Positions 6,450 through 50,566 of a DNA stretch of 64,000 nt are shown one piece after another. Numbering within the stretch: the first letter of the stretch is position 1; every line of letters starts with the position of its first letter. Below the pieces are notes generated by a model. That model saw only the letters and a list, made by a program, of their open reading frames with translations, was not told where the DNA came from and made no database searches. The DNA lies in contig JAJDCO010000015.1 of NCBI GenBank assembly GCA_029260795.1, positions 62,001 through 126,000 on the forward strand. Direction: 5' to 3'. The position numbers were made by a program, and so were the translations under genes. Source of the DNA: Planctomycetota bacterium (GTDB lineage: Bacteria > Planctomycetota > OFTM77).

Positions 6450-7388
6450 TCAGAGGAGAGACCGACGTACGATCTCGCGAGCCAGCTCTTGGGAGGACAG
6501 CTCGCCCGCCTCTTCGCCTCCCGCGATCCAATCGATCTCGGAGAAGGAGCGGAACCACGTGGCCTGTCGACGCGCGAAGCGCCAGGTCTCCCGGGAGATG
6601 GTGTCGGCGAGATCGGCCTCGGCCAGACGCCCCGCCCGGACCTCGATGGCCTGTCGATAGCCCAGCGCCTCCCCAGCCTCCCGGCTGAAGCCACCCGCCT
6701 TCTCGATCGAATCGACCTCGGCGAGGAGCCCGGCCGCGACCATGCGTCGAGCACGCGAGACAATGCGCGAACGGAGCCACGCCGGGTCCCGCCGGACACC
6801 GATCAACACCGGCACCACACCGGGGATCTTGCGTGTCCGCTCGCGCTGGAGCTCGGTGATGGGACGCCCGGTCAGCTCGAACACTTCGAGCGCCCGGACG
6901 AGCCGCTTTTCATCGTTGGCATGGATGCGGGCGGCGGCCTCCGCGTCGATGGACGTCAGGCGTCCATGAAGCGTCGGTCCCCCAGGCTTCGCGGTGTCCC
7001 TCAGGATGCGCGCCCGGACCTCGGGATCTGCTGGCGGACCTTCGAACAGCCCGTGCACCAGCGCTCGCAGGTAGAGCCCCGTCCCCCCGCAAAAGAGCAC
7101 CGGAGTCTCTGGCGAGATCTCGGCAAGCTCCGCTTCGACCGTTCGAAGAAACCGCCCGACGTTGAACGACTCCCAAGGCTCGACGAGATCGAGGCCATGG
7201 TATCGAAGCCGAGCTCGCCACTCAGGTGAGGGCTTGTCGGTCCCCACCTCCATGCGGCGATACACCTTGATCGCGTCCATGCAGAAGACGTGGGCGCCGA
7301 GCACTGCGGCAGCACGTGCCGTCGCCTCGTCCTTCCCACTCCCGGTCTGACCGGTGACGACGAAGAGGCGTCGTGGGCCGAGACTCAT
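6450..7388 (-). CDS. miaA: tRNA dimethylallyltransferase
   Basis: MiaA transfers a dimethylallyl group to the N6 of A37 in tRNAs that read UNN codons. The protein is 312 residues from the ATG at 7388, which overlaps the stop of the upstream M16 peptidase gene by 4 bp. The longer open frame upstream is not family-like. Motifs in order are the P-loop GQTGSGKD (about residues 11-18; most homologues have TASGKT), MDAIKVYRRMEVGTDKP (substrate-binding Asp, residues about 32-48), CGGTGLYLRAL, DEKRLVRALEVFELTGRP, GEALGYRQAIE and the C-terminal RRQATWFR. The downstream side is the tandem-repeat block, so this is the last gene of a three-gene minus-strand operon. Confidence 0.95.
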   Translation of the reverse strand: MSLGPRRLFVVTGQTGSGKDEATARAAAVLGAHVFCMDAIKVYRRMEVGTDKPSPEWRARLRYHGLDLVEPWESFNVGRFLRTVEAELAEISPETPVLFCGGTGLYLRALVHGLFEGPPADPEVRARILRDTAKPGGPTLHGRLTSIDAEAAARIHANDEKRLVRALEVFELTGRPITELQRERTRKIPGVVPVLIGVRRDPAWLRSRIVSRARRMVAAGLLAEVDSIEKAGGFSREAGEALGYRQAIEVRAGRLAEADLADTISRETWRFARRQATWFRSFSEIDWIAGGEEAGELSSQELAREIVRRSLL

Positions 7389-8677
7389 GACTCCGGCGGC
7401 AGGATCAACGAGGTGACGCAGTCTTCGGGTCGGATCCGCTCCCGGAAGACCGACTCGAGCTCGTCGAGATTCAGGGATTCGACCGCCTCGTAGACGGCGA
7501 AGGGGGACACCTTGCGAAAATGCGCACTGAGGTACGTCTGTGCACACGACTCGACGGAGTCGAAGCTTCGAATGTAGGAACCGAGGTATCGGTCCCGGGC
7601 TCTCGCGAAAGCCTTCTTGTCCAGGCCGCCACTCAGTGAATCGGCGAGGACGTCCAAGAGCGCCTTTCGAAACGACTCGGGCTCATCCGACTCGCCTCCC
7701 AAGACGGCGAAGGCAAAACCACGCTCGCTGGCCTGGCTGAAGGAGAAGGACTCGTCGATCACTCCCTCTTCGTAGAGACGAGCGTGGGCAGCCGATGAAC
7801 GTCCGAGCGCCAAGTCCAGTCCGATCGCAAAGGCAACATTCGCACGCAACGCGTCCGGCCCCGTCACGGATGTGGGGGGCAGCCCTTTGAACCCCAGCGC
7901 CACCCGGGGTCGAGCGACCTCTCGACGCTCGACGACTTCTCGGGCGGCCGGCTCGAGCGGCTCGACAGGCAGTCGACGCTCGACGCTCGGTGGCGGCCCA
8001 AAGCCGATGCGCTCGAGCTGGGCGGCGACACGGTCGGCGACCTCGTCGGGATCGACCGGGCCCACGACGACCAAGGCCATGTTCGAAGGATGGTAGAACG
8101 TGCGGTGGCAAGTATAGAGCGTCTCGGGATCGATCTCGGATATCGACTCGATCGTTCCGGCGATGTCGATGCGCACCGGATGCCGGGCAAACAGTGCTCC
8201 CAACAGATTCGTGTACAACCGATAGTCCGCGTGATCCTGATACATCTTGATCTCTTGAGCGATGATCCCTTGCTCCTTCGCGACGCCTTCGGCCGAGAAG
8301 TGTGGAACCAAGACGAAATCGACCAAGAGATCGAGGTTCGGCTCGAAGCCGTCGGTGCAGGTAAAGAGGTACGATGTGTTCGCGTACGACGTGGCCGCGT
8401 TCGTATCTGCACCGCGTCGGTGGAAGAGCTCGCTGACGTCGCCTTCCGGCTTCTCGAAGAGCTTGTGCTCGAGAAAATGCGCGACGCCATCCGGGACCTG
8501 ACGCTCCTCACCGTCTACCGAGAACGCGCTGTCGATCGAGCCGTATTCGGTGCCGATCACCGCGAATGTCCGCGCATGCTGCGGCTTGACGCCGACGAAG
8601 AGCTGTAGCCCGTGAGGGAGACGAGCCTGGCGGACGTCCTCCGTCAGGATCCGGTTGACGATCGGCTCGAGTCTCAT
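7385..8677 (-). CDS. Peptidase M16 family, catalytic subunit (YmfH-like)
   Basis: This 430-residue zinc peptidase is of the pitrilysin/insulinase family. The inverted zinc motif is present as HFLEH (HxxEH, about residues 64-68), followed by the KLFEKPEGD segment typical of the Bacillus YmfH and processing-peptidase-like branch. The third ligand Glu is expected about 70-80 residues later, in the LVDFVLVPHFSAEGVAKEQGIIAQEI region. The protein has two half-domains and no signal peptide. It overlaps the upstream M16-like gene and downstream miaA by 4 bp each, so the three are translationally coupled. The neighbour lacks the zinc motif, and the two probably form a heterodimer as YmfF/YmfH do. The substrate cannot be told from sequence. 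Confidence 0.88.
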   Translation of the reverse strand: MRLEPIVNRILTEDVRQARLPHGLQLFVGVKPQHARTFAVIGTEYGSIDSAFSVDGEERQVPDGVAHFLEHKLFEKPEGDVSELFHRRGADTNAATSYANTSYLFTCTDGFEPNLDLLVDFVLVPHFSAEGVAKEQGIIAQEIKMYQDHADYRLYTNLLGALFARHPVRIDIAGTIESISEIDPETLYTCHRTFYHPSNMALVVVGPVDPDEVADRVAAQLERIGFGPPPSVERRLPVEPLEPAAREVVERREVARPRVALGFKGLPPTSVTGPDALRANVAFAIGLDLALGRSSAAHARLYEEGVIDESFSFSQASERGFAFAVLGGESDEPESFRKALLDVLADSLSGGLDKKAFARARDRYLGSYIRSFDSVESCAQTYLSAHFRKVSPFAVYEAVESLNLDELESVFRERIRPEDCVTSLILPPES

Positions 8678-9957
8678 GCCGAAGGGCTCCTCAACAGGTA
8701 GATGGTCTCACACCGAATGCGTGGTGCGACCGCGACCAGATCCGCGGGCTCGAGGGCCGCAAAGCGACTCGGCAGCTCACCCAGCGCGAAGGAGTACCCG
8801 GCCAACATCCGCTCGAGGTGCTGATGGCTCCAAGCACCGGGGCTGTCGGGTACGCTTCTCAACCGTCCGACCACGGTCTCGCGCGCAGCCGAGAACTCGT
8901 CCGCTCCGATGCGGCCTGCCGCCATGTCCTCGAGCTGCTTGCGGATCAACGCGAGGGCGGGCTCGAAGGCCTCGGCGTCGATCCCGGTCGAGATCATCAT
9001 CAGCCCTTTGTGCGATTCCAGGCTGGAGTGCACCGAGTACGCGAGGCTGGCCTCTTCACGCACGCTGCGGAAGAGCTTGGAGAACATGCCCCCACCCAAC
9101 AAGGTGTTGTAGAGGTGCAGCGCCACGTAGTCCTTCTCGGTGCAATCGGTGAGGTCGACCGGGCAACCGATGAGCAGCCTGGCCTGCTCGACCTCCGACT
9201 CCTCGATCACGATCTGCTCGGGACGCACCGGATGTGCGACGGGCGGCCCTGGCTCGTCGTCCTTGGGACCCTGAACGCAGCTCCCGGCAAGCAGGCGAGC
9301 TGTGATCGCTTTGACGTCGAAGTCGCCGACAGCATAGATGTCCAGTGGCGCGTGAGTCAGCAGACGGTCCAGCCGGGTGCGCACTTGAGGGTTGGTGAGG
9401 CTCGAGAGCCTTTCCAGCTCTCCGTACTCGTGGATCCCGTAAGGCTCGTCCGGATACATCGTCTGCAGGAAACGCTCGTGGGCCCAGCCGTCTTTGTCGT
9501 CCTTGAGCCCCTCGAGCTGACGGCGCAAGTTGAGACGCTCCTGCTCAAAGCTCTCAGATCGATACTCCCCCGCCTCACCCACTGGCTTCGTCATCAGGGC
9601 ATCGAAGAAGTCGAGCAGGCGATCGGTCAGCCCGGCTCCCCTCGGAGGCAGAAAGCGCTCTGCCGCAAAGGACAGCCGACCGACGAACAAGTTCCGCTCA
9701 CCGATCTTGGAGAGGTTCAGGCCGACCGAGGATCCGTAGAGCTCCTCGAGATGAATCGTGATCGATCGGAGATCGGGAAACCCCTCGCAGCCGCGTTTGG
9801 CAAGCGATTGGATCAGAGACAGCTCGGTGGCGTCGGGCTCCAGCCGGTTGTGGAAGTAATACCGAACGCCGACGCCCTTGAACTTCTGTGTGGGGAGGCA
9901 GTGAATGCGCACGCCTCCGGAGTCATGGACCGTCTGAAACTCGAAAGACGATTCCAA
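8674..9957 (-). CDS. Peptidase M16-like non-catalytic subunit (YmfF-like)
   Basis: This M16-fold protein has no HxxEH motif where the active family has it: the region reads LAKRGCEGFPDLRSITIHLE, so it is likely a catalytically dead partner subunit. The first residues after the proposed start (FEFQTVHDSGGVRIHCLPTQ) align with the usual N terminus of YmfF-type proteins. The start is taken as TTG at 9957, preceded by GGGAGGG at about nine bases. The frame stays open to a GTG at 10062, which has no ribosome-binding site and would add 35 unlike residues. The protein is 427 residues from the TTG. The stop overlaps the next M16 gene (ATGA). It heads the M16-M16-miaA operon. Confidence 0.8.
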   Translation of the reverse strand: MESSFEFQTVHDSGGVRIHCLPTQKFKGVGVRYYFHNRLEPDATELSLIQSLAKRGCEGFPDLRSITIHLEELYGSSVGLNLSKIGERNLFVGRLSFAAERFLPPRGAGLTDRLLDFFDALMTKPVGEAGEYRSESFEQERLNLRRQLEGLKDDKDGWAHERFLQTMYPDEPYGIHEYGELERLSSLTNPQVRTRLDRLLTHAPLDIYAVGDFDVKAITARLLAGSCVQGPKDDEPGPPVAHPVRPEQIVIEESEVEQARLLIGCPVDLTDCTEKDYVALHLYNTLLGGGMFSKLFRSVREEASLAYSVHSSLESHKGLMMISTGIDAEAFEPALALIRKQLEDMAAGRIGADEFSAARETVVGRLRSVPDSPGAWSHQHLERMLAGYSFALGELPSRFAALEPADLVAVAPRIRCETIYLLRSPSA

Positions 9958-10103
9958 GGACAGCGCCCTCCCGCATTCTTGGTCACTCAGGTCGCGATCG
10001 AGTCCCGCCGGGGTCCCGTCCTCGAGGAGATCGCCGGCGATCCTAGTGCAAGAGACTCCCACAAGTCAATGAATATCATAAGCTTGCCGACTCAAACCGC
10101 CTC

Positions 10104-41348: not shown

Positions 41349-43262
41349 TTACTCGATCGTGAACACGGCCATCGAGCTTCGCAGGCCCCCGCCACGCAGG
41401 AAGGCGCGCGCCTCGATCTCGTAATTGCCGGCCGAGAAGAGACCGGGCGGTATCGTGACCGTCATCCGCAACGACTGTTTGTCGGGGCTCGTCTGGAGGA
41501 TCGGCGCCATCGCGGGCCAGTACGGCATCAGGTCGTAGTCCTCGAGCCCCAAGTGCGGCACCGAGAGGCGGAGATCGAAGCCGATCACGCGGTTGCCCAC
41601 CGCCGGGACTCCGCCGATCAGGATCTCCGCTTCAAGCGACTGAGCGCTCGAGACGACGCTCGGGCTGACCGTGATCTCGATGTCGGCGTCCTGGTTGGCT
41701 CCGGTGTAGAGCAGACCGGGTTCCGTCGCCGTCTCATTGCCTCCCGGGTCAGTGAGCCGGACACGGTATCGATAGAACTTTCGGAGCACCAGACCCGTCG
41801 GCGCAAAGGTCTGTCGAGTGCGCCACGCCGGCGAGCCCGGGACGAACAGCTCTCCGGGCGCCACCTGACCATACTCTAGCGAGCCGCGGACCAGCTCGGG
41901 AGTCGTGGCAGGGGTCAGACACGCCTCGACCAGCCGAGCCTGCCCGATGCCACTGAGCCGGATCTCCGGCACAGGAGGCGGCGAAACGTCATTCTCCGAG
42001 GTGCGTCCCACGCGATACGGCGCGTAGAGCGGATCGCCCACCGCCAAAGTGACCCATCGAAGACCCGGAGTGCTCGCCATGGCCGCTTCGCCGAACGTGT
42101 AGCCGGCGAGCAGATAGTAGGCGATGGTCTCGGGGTAGGGATGGCCATTGACGAAGGGCTCGGCGATGGCGCCAGCACCTCCGGTCAGGCCGCGCTCCAA
42201 GGCGCTGCTCAGAAAAGCCGACGGCATCGACTCCCGAAGGTAGCGGGCCGAGTTGCTATTGAGGTCGATGGCGACGGCGCCCGGCACCCAGTCGTAGACG
42301 TCCAGGTAGCGACCGTAGTTGTACCAGCCGGAGTAGAACAGTGCCGAGGACGCCACGGCGGCAGGTGCGCCTCCTTCGAAGACGGCACCGCTCTCGCCGA
42401 TCGCCTTGTCGTTGCTCGTGCTCTCCCACTGAACCGTCAACCCGGCGGCCTCGAGCAAGAAGCGGCCGTACGCGATTCCTTTGTCAGCCTCCGCGTAGGT
42501 CATCCGATCGAATGGGTAGCCGGACGTGAGCTGCTCGTCGGTGTACTTCCCATAGCGTGTGTCGAGATAGGCGGTCCCGTGATACCCCGGCGCGATCACC
42601 GATGCGGCGAGGTAGCGCTCGGCGTAGAGCGCGCGCTCGACCAGCTCGTTCGCATGAGCCGCGCTCGATCCGGTCAGCCGGGAGACCAGGTACATGGGTT
42701 GGCCGCCAGCATGGTAGCCATGATGAAACCGGTCGAGGTCGGTCCCGTAGCCCGGATCACCGTCGAAGTAGGCGTTGCTCCACCAGTAGGCGGGCAGGTC
42801 GGGAGTCAGTCGATCTCCCAGGCGATACGGATCGGCGAGCAGAGAGTCGAGTGCGCGCTTGCCGAGCCCGAGAGCCGTCAGATCGACGACATAGGGCATC
42901 CCGTAGCAGAGCAAGATGTGATCGATGTTGGTCGTCCCGATCTGGCTCAACGCCGCTCGAAGCGGAAGGACGACCTCGTCAAAGAAGTCGGTCCAACCAG
43001 TCGGTTGGGAGTAGAACTCGTAGGGTGTCGAAATGCTCAGCCCCAAGAGCTGGCCTTGGGGCACACCCCGCCGTGCGGCATAGTGACGGGCCACCTGCTC
43101 GGAGTCGACCATGCCGTTTCCGTCGCGATCGAGATCGGTCGCGTTGAACACGATCAAGACGCGGTCGGGCAGCTCCGGTCCGGGAACCGTCTCGGGTCCG
43201 TTCGACCCGCCCCACGTCAACGTCGCGAGCACGAAGATGAGGATTGACGTAGCGCTGGCCAT
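41349..43262 (-). CDS. TIGR03790 family exported protein
   Basis: This 637-residue exported protein of the TIGR03790 family (uncharacterised, found in several environmental phyla) has a short signal (SILIFVLATLTWGG). Early blocks are PDRVLIVFNATDLDRDGNGM and VDSEQVARHYAARRGVPQGQ (about residues 32-70), then ILLCYGMPYVVDL, and later ATSALFYSGWYNYG-type and GHPYPETIAYYLLAGYTFGE segments. The DLDRDGNGMVD segment resembles a calcium-binding loop. A C-terminal beta-sandwich (about 430-637) follows. The function is unknown. It stands alone, convergent with the acidic protein gene. Confidence 0.87.
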   Translation of the reverse strand: MASATSILIFVLATLTWGGSNGPETVPGPELPDRVLIVFNATDLDRDGNGMVDSEQVARHYAARRGVPQGQLLGLSISTPYEFYSQPTGWTDFFDEVVLPLRAALSQIGTTNIDHILLCYGMPYVVDLTALGLGKRALDSLLADPYRLGDRLTPDLPAYWWSNAYFDGDPGYGTDLDRFHHGYHAGGQPMYLVSRLTGSSAAHANELVERALYAERYLAASVIAPGYHGTAYLDTRYGKYTDEQLTSGYPFDRMTYAEADKGIAYGRFLLEAAGLTVQWESTSNDKAIGESGAVFEGGAPAAVASSALFYSGWYNYGRYLDVYDWVPGAVAIDLNSNSARYLRESMPSAFLSSALERGLTGGAGAIAEPFVNGHPYPETIAYYLLAGYTFGEAAMASTPGLRWVTLAVGDPLYAPYRVGRTSENDVSPPPVPEIRLSGIGQARLVEACLTPATTPELVRGSLEYGQVAPGELFVPGSPAWRTRQTFAPTGLVLRKFYRYRVRLTDPGGNETATEPGLLYTGANQDADIEITVSPSVVSSAQSLEAEILIGGVPAVGNRVIGFDLRLSVPHLGLEDYDLMPYWPAMAPILQTSPDKQSLRMTVTIPPGLFSAGNYEIEARAFLRGGGLRSSMAVFTIE

Positions 43263-43642: not shown

Positions 43643-44245
43643 ATGACCGACTGGATACCCGACCAAACCGCCCTTCGACTCCCGCGAGGAGACGCCCAAG
43701 CCTGGGACGCCTTCTATGCGGAGACCGTTCGGCCGTTGTTCGCGCATGTCCAGAGCCGTCTCGGAAGCGACTCGGAGACGACAGAAGAGCTGATAGCGGC
43801 CATCTACTTCGAGGCGGCGCGCTCCGCTCGCAACTACGATCCCACGCTCGCTCCCCCGTTCGCGTGGCTGAAGGGCATCGCTCGTCACCGGATCTCGCGT
43901 CACCTGGAGCAACGGCGCCGCGAGCGTCAACGGAGTCGTTCTTGGGCACCCGACGCCGAGATCGAGCCGGCTCTAAGAGCTGCCGCCGAGGAGGAAGAGT
44001 CTCCCGAGCTGGTGCGGGCACGGGTGGCTTCGGTCATCTCGGAGCTGGACGCTGAAGAGCGAGAGCTCCTGCTGGCCAAGTACGTCGATGGCGTGTCCGC
44101 CGCCGAGCTCGCCGATCGCATGACTCGCACCCCCACCGCCATCCACTCTGCACTCCAGCGCGCCCGAGACAAGTTCAAGCGCCTCTATGCAGGGGAGCAG
44201 AAACGCGAGGAGCACCCGACTTTCGTGAGGAGCACGCAACCATGA
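43643..44245 (+). CDS. ECF-type RNA polymerase sigma factor
   Basis: This 200-residue sigma factor has region 2 (DAFYAETVRPLFAHVQSRLG then AAIYFEAARSARN, residues about 22-65) and FAWLKGIARHRISRHLEQRR. An acidic linker follows (ALRAAAEEEESPE), then region 4 (ISELDAEERELLLAKYVDGV then SAAELADRMTRTPTAIHSAL, about 137-176). It lacks the zinc-finger signature of some anti-sigma fusions. The stop overlaps a small membrane protein gene (ATGA), so the two form an operon. The signal it responds to is unknown. Confidence 0.92.
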   Translation: MTDWIPDQTALRLPRGDAQAWDAFYAETVRPLFAHVQSRLGSDSETTEELIAAIYFEAARSARNYDPTLAPPFAWLKGIARHRISRHLEQRRRERQRSRSWAPDAEIEPALRAAAEEEESPELVRARVASVISELDAEERELLLAKYVDGVSAAELADRMTRTPTAIHSALQRARDKFKRLYAGEQKREEHPTFVRSTQP

Positions 44246-44645: not shown

Positions 44646-47018
44646 TCAGGACGCGTGTCGCGTGACTCCGCTGGGGTCACACTGAACGTCCCAACGCTGG
44701 CCGCGAAACAGGAGATTCTCGACTCGCAGCTCCGCGACTTCGTCGGGCAGTCGAGGTCTCAATGTCAGAGAACCGTCGACGACGCTCGCTCCGAGCAGTC
44801 CTTCGATGAGGGTCGTGATCCCGAGACAGCCGACGGCCATCGCATAGTCGCCACCCATCGTCTCTTCGCCGGGAATCCCGATTCCGTTGAAGTCGACGAC
44901 GGCGCGCCCCATCCATTGAAGCAGTCGCCAGGCGAGCGAGCGGGCCGCGGACTGGCGCTCACCTTCGACCTCGAGGAGCGCCTGGGCGATCAGGCTGTTG
45001 TGCCAGAACCAGACGCCCCGGCCGCCTCCCACGGTCTTGGCGAACCCGGCCTCCGGCACGAGCCAAGGGTTTTGGGGATCCAACAGCACCTCGATCACAC
45101 GGGCAGCCGCCGCCGGCTCGAGAGCCCGGTTCAGCAGAGCGACGGCATTCACGAGCAGGATGTCGTACGAGAACATCCAAGACTCGGAATCGTCGGTGCC
45201 CCGCGGGATCAGCAGCCCGCCCGGGATGCGTCTTCCGTCCGGCGCCACTTGATCCGCCTCCTCGAGGAATCCGCCTTGCGATCGAGGTCGATTGGCGAGC
45301 TCGCGAATGACCCGCGCGTCCGCGCGGACACTCTCGGCTCGGGCGCTCACCGATCTCGCATCCAGCCCGCGCGCGAAGCGCTCGAGACATCCTGGCGCCG
45401 TGGCGACGAGATACGATGCGTTCTGCGTCTCCTCGCCGGCCAGCCACAGGGGCGCATCCGGATCGAAGGGATGGTAGTGCTCGAAGTAGACCTCGGTCGC
45501 GATCTCGAGGTAACGATCGACTCTCGCCCGATCACCGGTCCAATCGCCGTAGCGCATCAGGCCATCGATCTGTCGAAGTAGGCCGACCGCGCCCTCCGAC
45601 TTCCAAAACCGCGCCTGGCGAGGATCGAAAGGCACGAAGGCAAAGTCGAACCCATCGGCCGGATGATCGATGATCCCTCGGTTCTCCCCTCGCCGGGGGC
45701 TGGCCCACAAGAAGTCCAGATTGCGTCGAGCCGCTGCCTGCAACCGAGGATGTTCGTGATAGAGCAAGGATGGATAGACCAGTGGGATGTCTTGCCCGAC
45801 GTGGCTCTTCCCGAGGTATCCGAGCGCACCGGTCGTCAGCACACCGTTCGGCCACACGAGCGAGACGAGCACGTCGGTCGCCCAACGGAAGTAGCCATCG
45901 ACATGGATGTCGCCGCTTCGGAACACGAGCGGATGCTCGCCACTCGCATCGACGGCCGAGTCCTCCCAAACGCGACGGAATGACGGCGGCGCGCTCGGTG
46001 CGGCCTCCGTCCGATGGCCTCGAAGGCCAACGCGCACAGTCTGAACCTCCGGCGAGCTCTTCAGCGGAATCTCGGTCACGACATCGAAGGCTGCTGCCCG
46101 TGAGCGATCGAGGCCGAGCACCTGAGCCCGCTCGGCGCAGAACGCATCGACCGGTGCCCAACGAAACTGGGGAGGCTCCTCGGACTCGACGATCAGCTCG
46201 GCATCGAGCTCGACTTCGGAGCTCCGGAAGGTCAGCGATCGATCCTGAAGCATCGGCTCCAACAGCCCGTCCTCGAAGTTGCCGAAGCCGAAGGGCGCTC
46301 GCAGCGTGTCGATCGGCTCCTGAAAGTCGAGGGGTGGCACCGTGAGCCGTTTGAGCAGGTGGCGAGTCTCGATGAACAACCGCCCCCCCGACGGCACCCG
46401 GAGCTCGACCTCCCACCAACAGCTCAGGGCCGGCGACTCGGGGACACAGACCCGAACGCGCGCGAACGGTGACGCATCGTCGCAGGCTTTGAGCTCCAGC
46501 TGCCCCGGGCTCCTTCGAAAGCGTGCGTCGAGCTCGGAGAATCGAACACGTTTGCCGTCCGACTCCACACCGAGCTCGAGTGCGATACCGTCTTCCCAGA
46601 GATCCTGGGCCCGCTTTCGAGGCTCGGTTCGCAGAATGCCGTAGCCCGGGAAGTTCGCTTCCACTCCATCCCCGAACGCAAAGCGCTCACCCCAGGTGCC
46701 GAGAAACGCGATCAGATCACAGCGATCCTCAGCCCGCGGCACGATCCAGTGCGGCACGTATCCCAGGTGCATCCAAGGCAGCGCCTTGTGTCCCGTGACG
46801 AGCGAGCGGCTGCGCACATGAGGACTCCACCTGCCATCGTCACCGCGGGCCCAGTCGTATCCGAGAGGCAGACGGCAGGTGCTCGAGTGAAGGTGGAGCA
46901 AACCCGCCCCCCAGCGTCCGATGATGTCTCCGTTCGCCTCGAAGTCGGAGGTCGTCTCGGCATCGGGACGGGGTACGAGGTCCCGGCGCCCGCCTTGCTC
47001 CTTCGAGGAACCGCTCAC
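44646..47018 (-). CDS. Alpha/alpha-barrel glycosidase-like protein
   Basis: This 790-residue cytoplasmic protein has the layout of the six-hairpin glycosidase superfamily (GH63/GH78/GH95-like). It has an N-terminal beta-sandwich (about 1-300), an alpha/alpha barrel (about 330-690, with GIIDHPADGFDFAFVPFDPR, SEGAVGLLRQIDGLMRYGDW and WLAGEETQNASYL), and a C-terminal small beta domain (SLTLRPRLPDEVAELRVENL). Candidate acids are in LAGEETQN and GGFLEEAD. No signal peptide is seen. It is the last gene of an operon with an ADP-ribosylglycohydrolase-fold protein and two oxidoreductases, whose stop it overlaps by 4 bp. The specific family and substrate are unknown. Confidence 0.78.
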   Translation of the reverse strand: MSGSSKEQGGRRDLVPRPDAETTSDFEANGDIIGRWGAGLLHLHSSTCRLPLGYDWARGDDGRWSPHVRSRSLVTGHKALPWMHLGYVPHWIVPRAEDRCDLIAFLGTWGERFAFGDGVEANFPGYGILRTEPRKRAQDLWEDGIALELGVESDGKRVRFSELDARFRRSPGQLELKACDDASPFARVRVCVPESPALSCWWEVELRVPSGGRLFIETRHLLKRLTVPPLDFQEPIDTLRAPFGFGNFEDGLLEPMLQDRSLTFRSSEVELDAELIVESEEPPQFRWAPVDAFCAERAQVLGLDRSRAAAFDVVTEIPLKSSPEVQTVRVGLRGHRTEAAPSAPPSFRRVWEDSAVDASGEHPLVFRSGDIHVDGYFRWATDVLVSLVWPNGVLTTGALGYLGKSHVGQDIPLVYPSLLYHEHPRLQAAARRNLDFLWASPRRGENRGIIDHPADGFDFAFVPFDPRQARFWKSEGAVGLLRQIDGLMRYGDWTGDRARVDRYLEIATEVYFEHYHPFDPDAPLWLAGEETQNASYLVATAPGCLERFARGLDARSVSARAESVRADARVIRELANRPRSQGGFLEEADQVAPDGRRIPGGLLIPRGTDDSESWMFSYDILLVNAVALLNRALEPAAAARVIEVLLDPQNPWLVPEAGFAKTVGGGRGVWFWHNSLIAQALLEVEGERQSAARSLAWRLLQWMGRAVVDFNGIGIPGEETMGGDYAMAVGCLGITTLIEGLLGASVVDGSLTLRPRLPDEVAELRVENLLFRGQRWDVQCDPSGVTRHAS

Positions 47019-48364
47019 GCCTGCAGCGCCAGCTCTCGGGTCCGCTCCGCCAAGGCCCGAAAGGAGGATGGATCGTATCCCGCCACCGCACTGTGCAACG
47101 TGTCTCCCAGCGGACCGACCCAGCGCTCGGGCAGCCGCTTCGCTCCCAGCATCGCTCCCACCAGAGCTCCCGCAGTGGCACCGTTACAGTCGGTGTCCCA
47201 GCCTCCGCGCACCGCGAGCGTGATGGTCCGACCGTAGTCCCCGGCACCGTAGAGAAGCGCCAAGACGACCAGACCGGCATTGGGCAACGTGTGGACCCAG
47301 TTGTAGTGTCCGACCTCCTCTCGCAGGCGCTGAGCGGCCTCGCCCCAGCCGAGGCCATGGCGATGCCAGGTCCGGCAGCGTTGGACGAGCTTGGCAAATC
47401 GGGACTGCGTGGGGACGCAGTCGAGCCCCGTCGTCAGCACGCCATCGAGATCGTCCTCGACCAGAGCGGCCGCGCTGGCGGCAGCCACGAACATCTCACC
47501 GTAGACGCCGTTGCGGACGTGGGAGAGGCGCGCGTCGCGATAGGCGAGCTCGGCGGCTCGGGCCGGTCGGCCCGGCGAGACCCAACCGTAGACGTCGCCT
47601 CGAATCTGCGCCCCGATCCATTCACGGAAGGGGTTCCAAAAGGTCGCGCTGTCGGGGCCGGACCGGCCTTGACTCAGATTGCGATAGGCGGCTCGCTCGG
47701 CAGTGTAGGTGAGGTGATAAGGCAGAAGCTCGAGCCAGCTGCGACCGACGTCGTCGGTCGTGAATCCGAGTCCTCGCCGCTCCATGAGGTCGAGACCGAG
47801 GATGGGATAGTCGAGGTCGTCGTCACGCGGCATGCCCTCGATGGCACCCCGCAAGCAGGGGCCAGGCTCGAGGATCTCGGGGTAGCGCAGGCGCTCTGGG
47901 GTGTCTTCCGGCAAGGGCGGAAAGTAGTCGACGAGGTCCGGCTCGCCGATGTGCTCCAGCAGCTCGCCAATGTGCTCGTGGCTCCACCCTTCGACGGGCT
48001 TGCCGAGCAGGCAGCCGGCGGCACGGCCTAGCCACGCACCCAAGAGGCGATCGGGGTCGACCTCGACGGGACAGGCCTCCGGGGCGCTGATACGAGACGA
48101 CGCTCGGAGGTCACTCCACTCGGTGGGCTCCGCCGCCGTGAGGATCCCGTCAGCCGGAAGCTCCTGGAGCTTTTGACGCAGCTCGACGGCCGCATGCCAA
48201 CGCTCTTCGCTCGGAGCCATCGCGACGACCGCGCTCAATTCGCCTTCGAGGGAAGAAACGTCGGCGCCCTCTTCGCGTCGCTGAGCGAGCTCCGCTTCCA
48301 GGATCTCCTTCAGCTCAGCGTCTTCGAAAGGTTGACCGGAATCCATGGCGCGCTCCCGCTTCAT
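47015..48364 (-). CDS. ADP-ribosylglycohydrolase-fold protein
   Basis: This 449-residue protein has the ADP-ribosylglycohydrolase (pfam03747) fold. Metal-binding segments are GAWLGRAAGCLLGKPVEGW (residues about 109-127), the acidic DDDLDYPILGL (about 181-191) and the terminal RGGWDTDCNGATAGALVGAM (about 385-404). An N-terminal helical extension of about 100 residues precedes the fold. Homologues cleave ADP-ribosyl bonds, but those in sugar operons may act on other ribosyl- or glycosyl-type bonds. Its neighbours here are oxidoreductases and a glycosidase-like protein, which favours a sugar role. Overlaps the downstream gene by 4 bp. Confidence 0.85.
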   Translation of the reverse strand: MKRERAMDSGQPFEDAELKEILEAELAQRREEGADVSSLEGELSAVVAMAPSEERWHAAVELRQKLQELPADGILTAAEPTEWSDLRASSRISAPEACPVEVDPDRLLGAWLGRAAGCLLGKPVEGWSHEHIGELLEHIGEPDLVDYFPPLPEDTPERLRYPEILEPGPCLRGAIEGMPRDDDLDYPILGLDLMERRGLGFTTDDVGRSWLELLPYHLTYTAERAAYRNLSQGRSGPDSATFWNPFREWIGAQIRGDVYGWVSPGRPARAAELAYRDARLSHVRNGVYGEMFVAAASAAALVEDDLDGVLTTGLDCVPTQSRFAKLVQRCRTWHRHGLGWGEAAQRLREEVGHYNWVHTLPNAGLVVLALLYGAGDYGRTITLAVRGGWDTDCNGATAGALVGAMLGAKRLPERWVGPLGDTLHSAVAGYDPSSFRALAERTRELALQA

Positions 48365-48366
48365 GC

Positions 48367-49425
48367 TCAGTAGTCGGCCGGGCAGACCACCTGACCTCGC
48401 CGTGCCGAATCGTAGGCCGCCTCGACGAGCTGGAGAGTCTTGAGGTGATCTTCACCCGAGACCTGAGGCGACCGCCCTTGCTCGATGGCACAGAGGAGGT
48501 CTCCCATCGCGCCGATGAAACCGTCAGGGTACCACTGCCCTTCGCACGGGGGCCGAAATACCGTGTGCGGATCGGAAGACAGGCGCACGGTAATCGGGTC
48601 GGAGTGCGCGACATCCCCTTCGACCAACCCCTCGGTGCCTTCGATCCCGAAGTACTGGTGGACGTCGCGTCCGGGAAGGGAGGCATTGTTGTCGAGCACG
48701 ATGGCGTGTTGACCGTCGGGGAAGTCCATGGCGATCGACGAAACGACATCGCCTTTCATGTTCTGCCCCGGCCGTTTCGGGAGCGAAGCAAAGAGCCGCA
48801 CGGGCTCCATTCCCATCCAGTACCGCACGAGATCGAGATGGTGGATCGTCCAGAACAGGATTTGGAAGCGCTCTTCGCGGCCATACCAGGCGTCCTTCGC
48901 CCACGACTGTGAGTCGGCGAAGTTGCGCATCTCCCAACGGACCAGGTAGACGTCGCCCAGGTGGCCGTTCTCGATCAGGGAGCGGGCCGCTCGAAAGCGA
49001 GGCGCCCAACGAGCGTTCTGATTAATGGCGAGCACGATGCCACCCTCGCGAGCCATGTCCACGATCCGGCGCGCGGTCGGGAGGTCGTGGGCCAGCGGCT
49101 TTTGGATGAGCAGATGCTTTCCAGCCGCAACGGCTGCCTCGACGACTTCGAGTCGTCCCGAGTCGGGAATCGCGATATCCACGACGTCGACGTCGTCACG
49201 CTCGACGAGAGCCCGCACATCCGACTCGACGTGTTCGATGCCGAACTGATCCGCCACCGCCCGTGCAGCCTTGGGCAGCACGTCGCAGATCGCGGAGACC
49301 GTGAAGCCGGCCTTCTTGTAGGCCGGAAGATGGGCATCGCGAACGATGCCGCCTGCACCGACGACACCAATGCGGAGCGCGGTCTGCGGCCGAGGCGGTT
49401 GCGAGGCGATCTCGGGCAGGGGCAT
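48367..49425 (-). CDS. Gfo/Idh/MocA-family oxidoreductase
   Basis: This 352-residue NAD(P)-dependent dehydrogenase has a Rossmann GVVGAGGIVRDAHLPAYKKA near the N terminus (about residues 20-39). At the usual EKP catalytic site it reads HLLIQKPLAHDLP (about 104-116), with Gln replacing Glu. AINQNARWAPRFRAARSLI and FWTIHHLDLVRYWMG (candidate catalytic His region, about 195-209) follow. It oxidises or reduces a sugar or cyclitol; the substrate is unknown. It lies 4 bp after the second such enzyme and 2 bp before the ADP-ribosylglycohydrolase gene, so the operon is tight. Confidence 0.92.
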   Translation of the reverse strand: MPLPEIASQPPRPQTALRIGVVGAGGIVRDAHLPAYKKAGFTVSAICDVLPKAARAVADQFGIEHVESDVRALVERDDVDVVDIAIPDSGRLEVVEAAVAAGKHLLIQKPLAHDLPTARRIVDMAREGGIVLAINQNARWAPRFRAARSLIENGHLGDVYLVRWEMRNFADSQSWAKDAWYGREERFQILFWTIHHLDLVRYWMGMEPVRLFASLPKRPGQNMKGDVVSSIAMDFPDGQHAIVLDNNASLPGRDVHQYFGIEGTEGLVEGDVAHSDPITVRLSSDPHTVFRPPCEGQWYPDGFIGAMGDLLCAIEQGRSPQVSGEDHLKTLQLVEAAYDSARRGQVVCPADY

Positions 49426-49429
49426 GCGC

Positions 49430-50440
49430 TCAGCTCTCCTCGTTCTGTCGGTACATCTCTTCCATGATCTCGACCACCGTCAGAGCCTCGTCGATCGTGG
49501 CTCCGCGGGGAGGCCGTCCCGTGAGCACACAGTCCGTGATATCGCGAAGCTCACGCGCGTAGTTCTCTTCACCCTCGAATGCCGGGTGGGACTGTCCCGA
49601 GAACCCGGCTGGAAGCTCGCCGACGGCTTGTCGGCGGAACAGTCGTGTGAAAGGCGGGTGCAGGCCGATCTCGAGCGTACCGTCGATGCCGTAGAGCTCG
49701 ATGCGCCAGCTCTCGATCCAGTCGTTCGCCTCCCACCCGCAGCAATCGCCCGCCGCCAACACCTCGCCGAACTCGAGTAAGAAGGCGGCGGAGTCCTCGA
49801 AGGGATGCTCGGGCAACCCTTCGAGCTTGCGAATGCGCGATCGATGTGCCGTCGGCTTGCCCAGCATGAGGATGAGCAGATCCAACATGTGGCAGAAGTC
49901 GAGGTAGACCAGGCCACCGCGATCTTCGGCGTCGCAGAACCAAGGATCGGTGAGCCAAGGCGCCATCACCGCCGCGTGAAAGCGCACGGTCGTGAGACGG
50001 CCCAGGCGTCGATCGGCCAGGAGTCGCAACGCCGGCTCGACCGAAGGTGCATATCGCAGGTGATAACCGACTTGGCAGAAGACGCCGGACTTCGCGACCG
50101 CCGCCTGGACGGTGCGGAGGGTCGCCAGGTTGTGGGCACCCGGCTTCTCGATGAGCATCGGTACTCCGCGCTCGGCCGCCTCGAGAGCCATCTCGGCATT
50201 GAACCGGTTGGTGCCCTCGATGATCACGAGCTCGGGTCGCAGCTGGTCGAAGAACCGCTCGGTCGTGTCGAGCACGGGAACGCCCTGCGCGCTCGCGAAC
50301 GACTCGCGATGGGCCGCCTCCGGCTCGAAGGCTCCGATGAGATCGAGCTCGGGGATGCGGGTGAGCACGTTGGCTCGGCCGCCCGCATGCGGATGGCTGA
50401 CACCCAAGAATCCGAGGCGAATGGACTTTTCGGCACTCAC
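49430..50440 (-). CDS. Gfo/Idh/MocA-family oxidoreductase (second copy)
   Basis: This 336-residue oxidoreductase starts with GTG at 50440, with GGGAG eight bases upstream; the open frame runs to 50713 without support. The Rossmann fingerprint is altered (IRLGFLGVSHPHAGGRANVL, residues about 7-26). The EKP motif is intact in PMLIEKPGAHNLA (about 95-107). LDFCHMLDLLILMLGKP (about 176-192) carries a likely catalytic His. The first gene of the sugar operon. The replaced nucleotide-binding glycines and SHPHAGGRA are typical of a divergent Gfo/Idh/MocA branch whose substrates are unknown. Confidence 0.9.
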   Translation of the reverse strand: MSAEKSIRLGFLGVSHPHAGGRANVLTRIPELDLIGAFEPEAAHRESFASAQGVPVLDTTERFFDQLRPELVIIEGTNRFNAEMALEAAERGVPMLIEKPGAHNLATLRTVQAAVAKSGVFCQVGYHLRYAPSVEPALRLLADRRLGRLTTVRFHAAVMAPWLTDPWFCDAEDRGGLVYLDFCHMLDLLILMLGKPTAHRSRIRKLEGLPEHPFEDSAAFLLEFGEVLAAGDCCGWEANDWIESWRIELYGIDGTLEIGLHPPFTRLFRRQAVGELPAGFSGQSHPAFEGEENYARELRDITDCVLTGRPPRGATIDEALTVVEIMEEMYRQNEES

Positions 50441-50555: not shown

Positions 50556-50566
50556 GGGGGATTGAA

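Follow-up and report, generated by a model that had tools for sequence, protein, structure and literature searches.

A packed planctomycete operon joining two Gfo/Idh/MocA proteins, an ADP-ribosylglycohydrolase-fold protein, and a glycosidase-like protein

Organization of the operon

We analyzed a 64,000-nucleotide stretch of DNA from a Planctomycetota bacterium (contig JAJDCO010000015.1, positions 62,001 to 126,000; hereafter the window) and focused on a minus-strand operon of four open reading frames, g1 to g4, whose position at 44646-50440 was confirmed. A first-pass annotation had described these genes as a packed set encoding cytoplasmic enzymes and had put them forward as a candidate for an undescribed system, suggesting redox-assisted glycoside cleavage or a cycle of oxidation, cleavage, and reduction. 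A literature search found no paper on this gene combination. The operon brings known types of enzyme together in a new way and is not a new kind of system. The four genes are as follows.

g1, 49430-50440, minus strand: Gfo/Idh/MocA (GIM) family protein of 336 amino acids (aa); GTG start with GGGAGA ahead of it
g2, 48367-49425, minus strand: GIM family protein of 352 aa
g3, 47015-48364, minus strand: ADP-ribosylglycohydrolase-fold protein of 449 aa
g4, 44646-47018, minus strand: glycosidase-like protein of 790 aa

The close packing was borne out, with gaps of 4 bp between g1 and g2 and 2 bp between g2 and g3, and a 4-bp overlap (GTGA) between g3 and g4. Hydropathy analysis of the four products gave a 19-residue maximum of 1.78, with no hydrophobic N terminus or membrane-like segment, and this is consistent with the cytoplasmic location that had been claimed. 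The operon is flanked by a divergent short-chain dehydrogenase gene starting near 50564 and by a gene for an extracytoplasmic function (ECF)-type sigma factor that stops at 44245, and it therefore stands alone. No sigma-70-like promoter was detected, two terminator-like sites were not above chance, and an Rfam scan of the window gave no match. The host genome comprises 8.1 Mb in 160 contigs, and the comparison genomes (sets of 59 and 99 relatives) are all related to it at phylum level only. Matches to planctomycete-type sigma factors and to TIGR03790 are suggestive of Planctomycetota.

The dehydrogenase pair and the ADP-ribosylglycohydrolase-fold protein

Both g1 and g2 passed the Pfam cut-offs for the Rossmann and C-terminal profiles of the GIM family, PF01408 (2.1e-12 for g1, over profile positions 18-120 only, and 6.2e-21 for g2) and PF22725 (3.6e-12 for g1). 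The g2 protein carries the subfamily marks QKP and NQNxRW. The first-pass annotation had noted QKP in place of EKP among the hints that the roles of the two enzymes may differ; the motif is present, but it is shared by 17 of 18 g2 homologs (32-37% identity), so we rejected it as an anomaly and regard it as a subfamily trait. The nearest solved structure to g2, 5uhw (1.1e-31), likewise has QKP. The degenerate Rossmann motif noted in the other enzyme is real: the glycine loop of g1 is degenerate and shortened (GFLGVSHPHA), and its EKP is retained (E98-K99-P100). The active-site Lys and His are present in both proteins. In g2 (Lys109 and His195), the Asp of the D-x3-H motif, four residues ahead of the His, is replaced by Phe; this Asp is variable among g2 homologs and the His is kept. 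In g1, it lies one position off, and there is a one-residue deletion ahead of the active-site His (LDFCH184). No g1 relatives at E≤1e-25 were found in 294 phylum genomes, with seven candidates scored per genome. Judged by its sequence, g1 is a divergent GIM member.

The best-matching models and structures for g2 are sugar or cyclitol dehydrogenases, namely, the inositol, levoglucosan, and disaccharide 3-dehydrogenase models and DgpA. Neither g1 nor g2 reached the equivalog cut-offs for inositol 2-dehydrogenase, levoglucosan dehydrogenase, or disaccharide 3-dehydrogenase; with the first of these models, g2 scored 120.7 bits and g1 57.8 bits, against a cut-off of 355. These scores bear on the main rival explanation, ordinary sequential hydrolysis, according to which g4 and g3 would hydrolyze two bonds of a heteroglycoside and the GIM proteins would only oxidize the sugars or cyclitols set free, in the manner of inositol dehydrogenases. 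We consider this somewhat less likely than the reading proposed below. The inositol 2-dehydrogenase model is the top score of g2, which also matches 4hkt, an inositol 2-dehydrogenase, but the score is far under the cut-off, and two adjacent, dissimilar GIM proteins suggest an oxidation paired with a reduction and not a single oxidation. Their adjacency is unlikely to be due to chance because the whole genome has only 22 PF01408 matches, two of which are neighbors in this operon; by a rough estimate for roughly 7000 genes, ∼0.07 adjacent pairs would be expected.

Tandem GIM genes recur elsewhere. Two loci with relatives of g2 (L203:9261-12291 and L212:9260-12269) each have, on one strand, a phytanoyl-CoA-dioxygenase-like gene (named by eye), a GIM gene, and a QKP-type GIM gene. 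The Rossmann loop of the first GIM protein in L212 is atypical (AGVNFDHMH), and the corresponding gene overlaps the QKP-type gene by 4 bp. Given this recurrence, the pairing of a QKP-type GIM gene with another GIM gene may be a module that is used repeatedly. The same groups are in favor of another explanation, that the operon is a biosynthetic cassette for modifying sugars or pseudosugars in natural products or surface glycans, as is the nearest solved structure to g1, 6nor (3.9e-17), a dehydrogenase of the gentamicin pathway. However, no glycosyltransferase, aminotransferase, or nucleotidyltransferase is among the operon genes, and the presence of two hydrolase-like enzymes suggests breakdown. 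We give this explanation little credence.

The g3 protein matched PF03747 over the full length of the profile (2.8e-53, positions 1-287 of 287). Structure prediction, which the first-pass annotation had put forward as a check, gave a confident AlphaFold2 model (predicted local distance difference test [pLDDT] 94) with the all-helical DraG/ARH3 fold and the metal-ligand Asp residues in place. Target-normalized template modeling scores from Foldseek were 0.79 for MJ1187 (1t5j) and 0.75-0.76 for ARH3 and DraG (3g9d, 0.76; 6g1q, 0.75). An N-terminal extension of ∼100 aa, mostly helical in the model, is typical of g3-type proteins. In ARH3, two Mg ions are held by Thr76, Asp77, Asp78, Asp314, Asp316, and Thr317 (PMC8141533), and the g3 counterparts, as matched by motif, are Asp181, Asp182, Asp183, Asp390, Asp392, and Cys393. 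All five Asp residues are invariant in 57 sequences; the position of Thr76 is thus Asp in 57/57, and that of Thr317 is Cys in 51 and Ser in 6. The DraG/ARH ligand pattern, Thr-Asp-Asp and Asp-x-Asp-Thr, is therefore not found in g3, which keeps its four Asp residues (D182, D183, D390, and D392). We predict from the model that g3 carries a two-metal site formed by D181, D182, D183, D390, D392, and C393. A His residue, H282, is conserved in 56 of the 57 sequences and may be equivalent to the pyrophosphate-contacting His conserved in ARH1 and ARH3 (PMC6309922).

The match of the fold and metal-site Asp residues to DraG and ARH3, together with the possible equivalence of H282, would fit a genuine ADP-ribosyl hydrolase, acting on a protein, nucleic acid, or free conjugate and sharing the operon only for regulation. 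We consider this improbable. The g3 protein scored 23.7 bits with the DraG equivalog and 16.2 bits with Tri1, against cut-offs of 337 and 490, both Thr ligands of ARH3 are replaced, and no ADP-ribosyltransferase is among the four operon genes. The genomic neighborhoods of the family also argue against it. The family has at least 574 relatives, including members in Bathyarchaeota, Thermoprotei, Gammaproteobacteria, Chloroflexota, Bacillota, Actinomycetota, and others. Of 76 operon-like neighbor proteins of g3 homologs, most belonged to a second ADP-ribosylglycohydrolase (11), followed by ABC permeases (7), GIM (6), MR_MLE (5), and HpcH/HpaI aldolase (4) as the next most frequent families; nucleoside hydrolase, PfkB, AP_endonuc_2, GH32, and DUF2961 were scarcer, and sugar ABC transporters also occur. 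These neighborhoods are of a sugar-catabolic and not of an ADP-ribosylation type. Because of this setting and of scores far under the DraG/ARH cut-offs, hydrolysis of protein-linked ADP-ribose is probably not the role of g3, in line with the earlier proposal, and the ADP-ribosylglycohydrolase annotation of its family is probably misleading.

Two further observations concern the surroundings of g3 homologs. In six loci (L090, L103, L110, L121, L123, and L125), a shorter (∼325 aa) ADP-ribosylglycohydrolase-family gene, whose family was scanned for L103 only, comes straight after the 450-aa homolog, which suggests paired or two-subunit enzymes. A family of ∼300-aa proteins, with 10 members in 8 loci (L049, L050, L053, L054, L062, L064, L066, and L069), is often encoded divergently beside g3 homologs; the single member scanned, L049:8564-9484, is an AraC-type regulator.

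The glycosidase-like protein and conservation of the gene set

The sole family match of g4 is to PF03633, the GH65 C-terminal domain, over its last 39 residues (748-786; 25.1 bits against a cut-off of 22, 1.5e-5), and its glycosidase-like label derives from this match and a weakly discernible architecture. PF03632, the catalytic (alpha/alpha)6 domain of GH65, had no match anywhere in the genome. The AlphaFold2 model of g4, built from the sequence by itself, has low confidence (pLDDT 35). In this model, the first half is rich in beta strands and is followed by some dozen helices with a barrel-like middle (∼364-742) and by a terminal beta sheet, the GH65 C-terminal domain at 748-786. GH65 enzymes are ordered as a beta-sandwich, a linker, an (alpha/alpha)6 barrel, and a C-terminal sheet, and in GH65 and clan GH-L the general acid lies between barrel helices 5 and 6 and the base between helices 11 and 12 (PMC8626586). 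The order of elements in the low-confidence model resembles that of GH65, and two GEET motifs of g4, at 528-531 and 717-720, fall near these loops and may mark acid/base loops; the likeness is no more than suggestive. As g4 has Glu motifs that may supply the acid and base, it would not need redox activation, a point in favor of the sequential hydrolysis described above, as is the lack of an elimination enzyme among the four genes. The lack of a kinase, isomerase, or aldolase in the operon, on the other hand, argues against it.

No g4 relatives were found in the PDB or on plasmids. Three phylum searches of up to 397 genomes (in the large runs, two candidates were scored per genome) and a search of 38 genomes reached via g3 relatives found no full-length relative, and none came from scanning 84,980 species genomes by pattern, an approach that reaches close relatives only. 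The best trace elsewhere is a weak C-terminal match in L158/L160 (E 0.003). Weak matches in L159 and L161-L163 are short and in unrelated proteins and were judged to be due to chance, and an 850-aa gene in L149, CehA/PHP-like by eye, was rejected as a homolog (BLASTP E 0.31).

The first-pass annotation had held that conservation of the four-gene set would support a joint pathway. A genome-neighborhood search did not find this: no other searched genome has all four genes. No g1, g2, or g4 partners were detected by tblastn near 31 phylum g3 homologs, and GIM genes lie close to g3 in few of the 80 loci from the scan of 84,980 species genomes. The four-gene combination is apparently peculiar to one little-sampled lineage.

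Related arrangements do occur. In L128 (bacterium isolate SKW262), AP_endonuc_2 (a TIM-barrel isomerase), GIM, GIM, a g3 homolog, GIM, a small gene, and a GH38 mannosidase-like gene follow one another on one strand with spacing within about 50 bp, an independent and striking parallel in a distant bacterium, with its own tandem GIM pair, g3 homolog, and large glycosidase. Together with the families and packing of the genes, this locus supports the earlier claim of sugar-type enzymes joined in one operon. In L083, a GIM gene comes immediately after the g3 homolog. L149:5442-16814, from Anaerolineales, encodes a short ADP-ribosylglycohydrolase, a sugar ABC importer, a g3 homolog, a CehA-like protein, DUF2961 (the GH172 family), a QKP-type GIM, and DUF6282, and appears to form a complete cluster for the uptake and catabolism of furanosides.

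Proposed function and comparison with known systems

We tentatively propose that the operon encodes a small cytoplasmic pathway of glycoside catabolism, in which the dehydrogenase pair would oxidize and re-reduce a sugar and g3 and/or g4 would cleave; we place this reading a little short of an even chance. A glycoside would be imported by a transporter encoded outside the operon and serve as the common substrate of the four proteins. At one of its sugar hydroxyls, g1 and g2, as NAD(P)-dependent dehydrogenases, would change the oxidation state or the configuration; g3, as a two-metal DraG-fold glycohydrolase, would cut a furanosyl-type or N-glycosidic bond of this small molecule; g4, as a GH65/clan GH-L-like glycosidase with an inverting mechanism, would cut a second bond, probably alpha-pyranosidic; and the second dehydrogenase would re-reduce the keto group to the alcohol, or the pair would epimerize. 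The exact order of oxidation, cleavage, and reduction is doubtful. There is precedent for oxidation before cleavage in the levoglucosan pathway, with its 3-dehydrogenase and final reductase (PMC7676230), and for sugar dehydrogenases together with a kojibiose phosphorylase, YcjT, in the Escherichia coli ycj cluster (PMC11543891). The many PF06439 (3-keto-disaccharide hydrolase) domains of the genome, 22 stretches including C2:25478-27229 and several in tandem within one protein, make 3-keto-glycoside chemistry likely in the host.

Several results weigh against the proposed pathway. None of the four genes encodes a transporter, as the first-pass annotation had stated, or a 3-keto-glycoside cleavage enzyme (AP_endonuc_2/PF01261 or PF06439); the PF06439 proteins of the host sit on other contigs than the operon, and L128 has PF01261. 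No profile of a glycoside hydrolase catalytic domain matched g4, and hhalign of g4 with five GH65 proteins gave a probability of 1.7%. The g1-g2-g4 set was in none of 111 g3 neighborhoods, where a profile count found GIM genes within 1.5 kb of g3 homologs 6 times against ∼3.8 expected, an enrichment that is marginal at most; on this count, we set aside as weak any general link between GIM genes and g3 homologs.

Taken alone, the operon is a combination known from a single lineage. What is general and testable is the substrate of the g3 family. It is possible, if somewhat doubtful, that the DTDC-type branch to which g3 belongs (proteins of ∼450 aa; 574 or more relatives in bacteria and archaea) is a family of small-molecule glycosidases that, in this operon and in L128, works with a GIM redox pair on an oxidized or epimerized glycoside. 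If so, a widespread branch annotated as "ADP-ribosylglycohydrolase" would be a family of sugar-cleaving enzymes, many genome annotations would be misleading, and a further type of cleavage enzyme would be added to the redox-assisted breakdown of glycosides.

Elsewhere in the window, 7385-10062 includes a match to YfmH (associated with 5-aminopentanol modification of elongation factor P; 442 bits), and the YfmH-type gene is overlapped by 4 bp by a minus-strand neighbor, possibly a YfmF-like partner. A 637-aa TIGR03790-family protein is encoded at 41349-43262 on the minus strand and adjoins the plus-strand ECF-type sigma factor gene (43643-44245).

Among known systems, the Bacillus smithii levoglucosan pathway, LgdA-LgdB1-LgdB2-LgdC, achieves net hydrolysis by oxidation, elimination, hydration, and reduction (PMC7676230). 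It likewise places a sugar 3-dehydrogenase next to cleavage enzymes, but the operon has no elimination/hydration enzyme and instead has the DraG-fold protein and the protein bearing a GH65 C-terminal domain. The E. coli ycj cluster, with the dehydrogenases YcjS and YcjQ, the isomerase YcjR, and the kojibiose phosphorylase YcjT (PMC11543891), also joins a GH65-type enzyme and sugar dehydrogenases in a single cluster; it differs from the operon in encoding a transporter, an isomerase, and a phosphoglucomutase and in lacking an ADP-ribosylglycohydrolase, and g4 is recognizably GH65 only in its C-terminal domain. DraG, ARH1, and ARH3 share the fold and the two-metal Asp ligands of g3, which differs in having Asp and Cys for the Thr ligands, the N-terminal extension, sub-cut-off scores, and sugar-catabolic contexts. 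In E. coli yegTUV, the predicted ADP-ribosylglycohydrolase YegU shares its operon with a nucleoside symporter and a sugar kinase, both putative (PMC10819704), but there are no dehydrogenases and no large glycosidase. L128 resembles the operon in its tight series of two GIM genes, a g3 homolog, and, further on, a large glycosidase; it differs in its extra AP_endonuc_2 and third GIM genes, in its GH38 glycosidase, and in GIM proteins that are 23-25% identical to g2.

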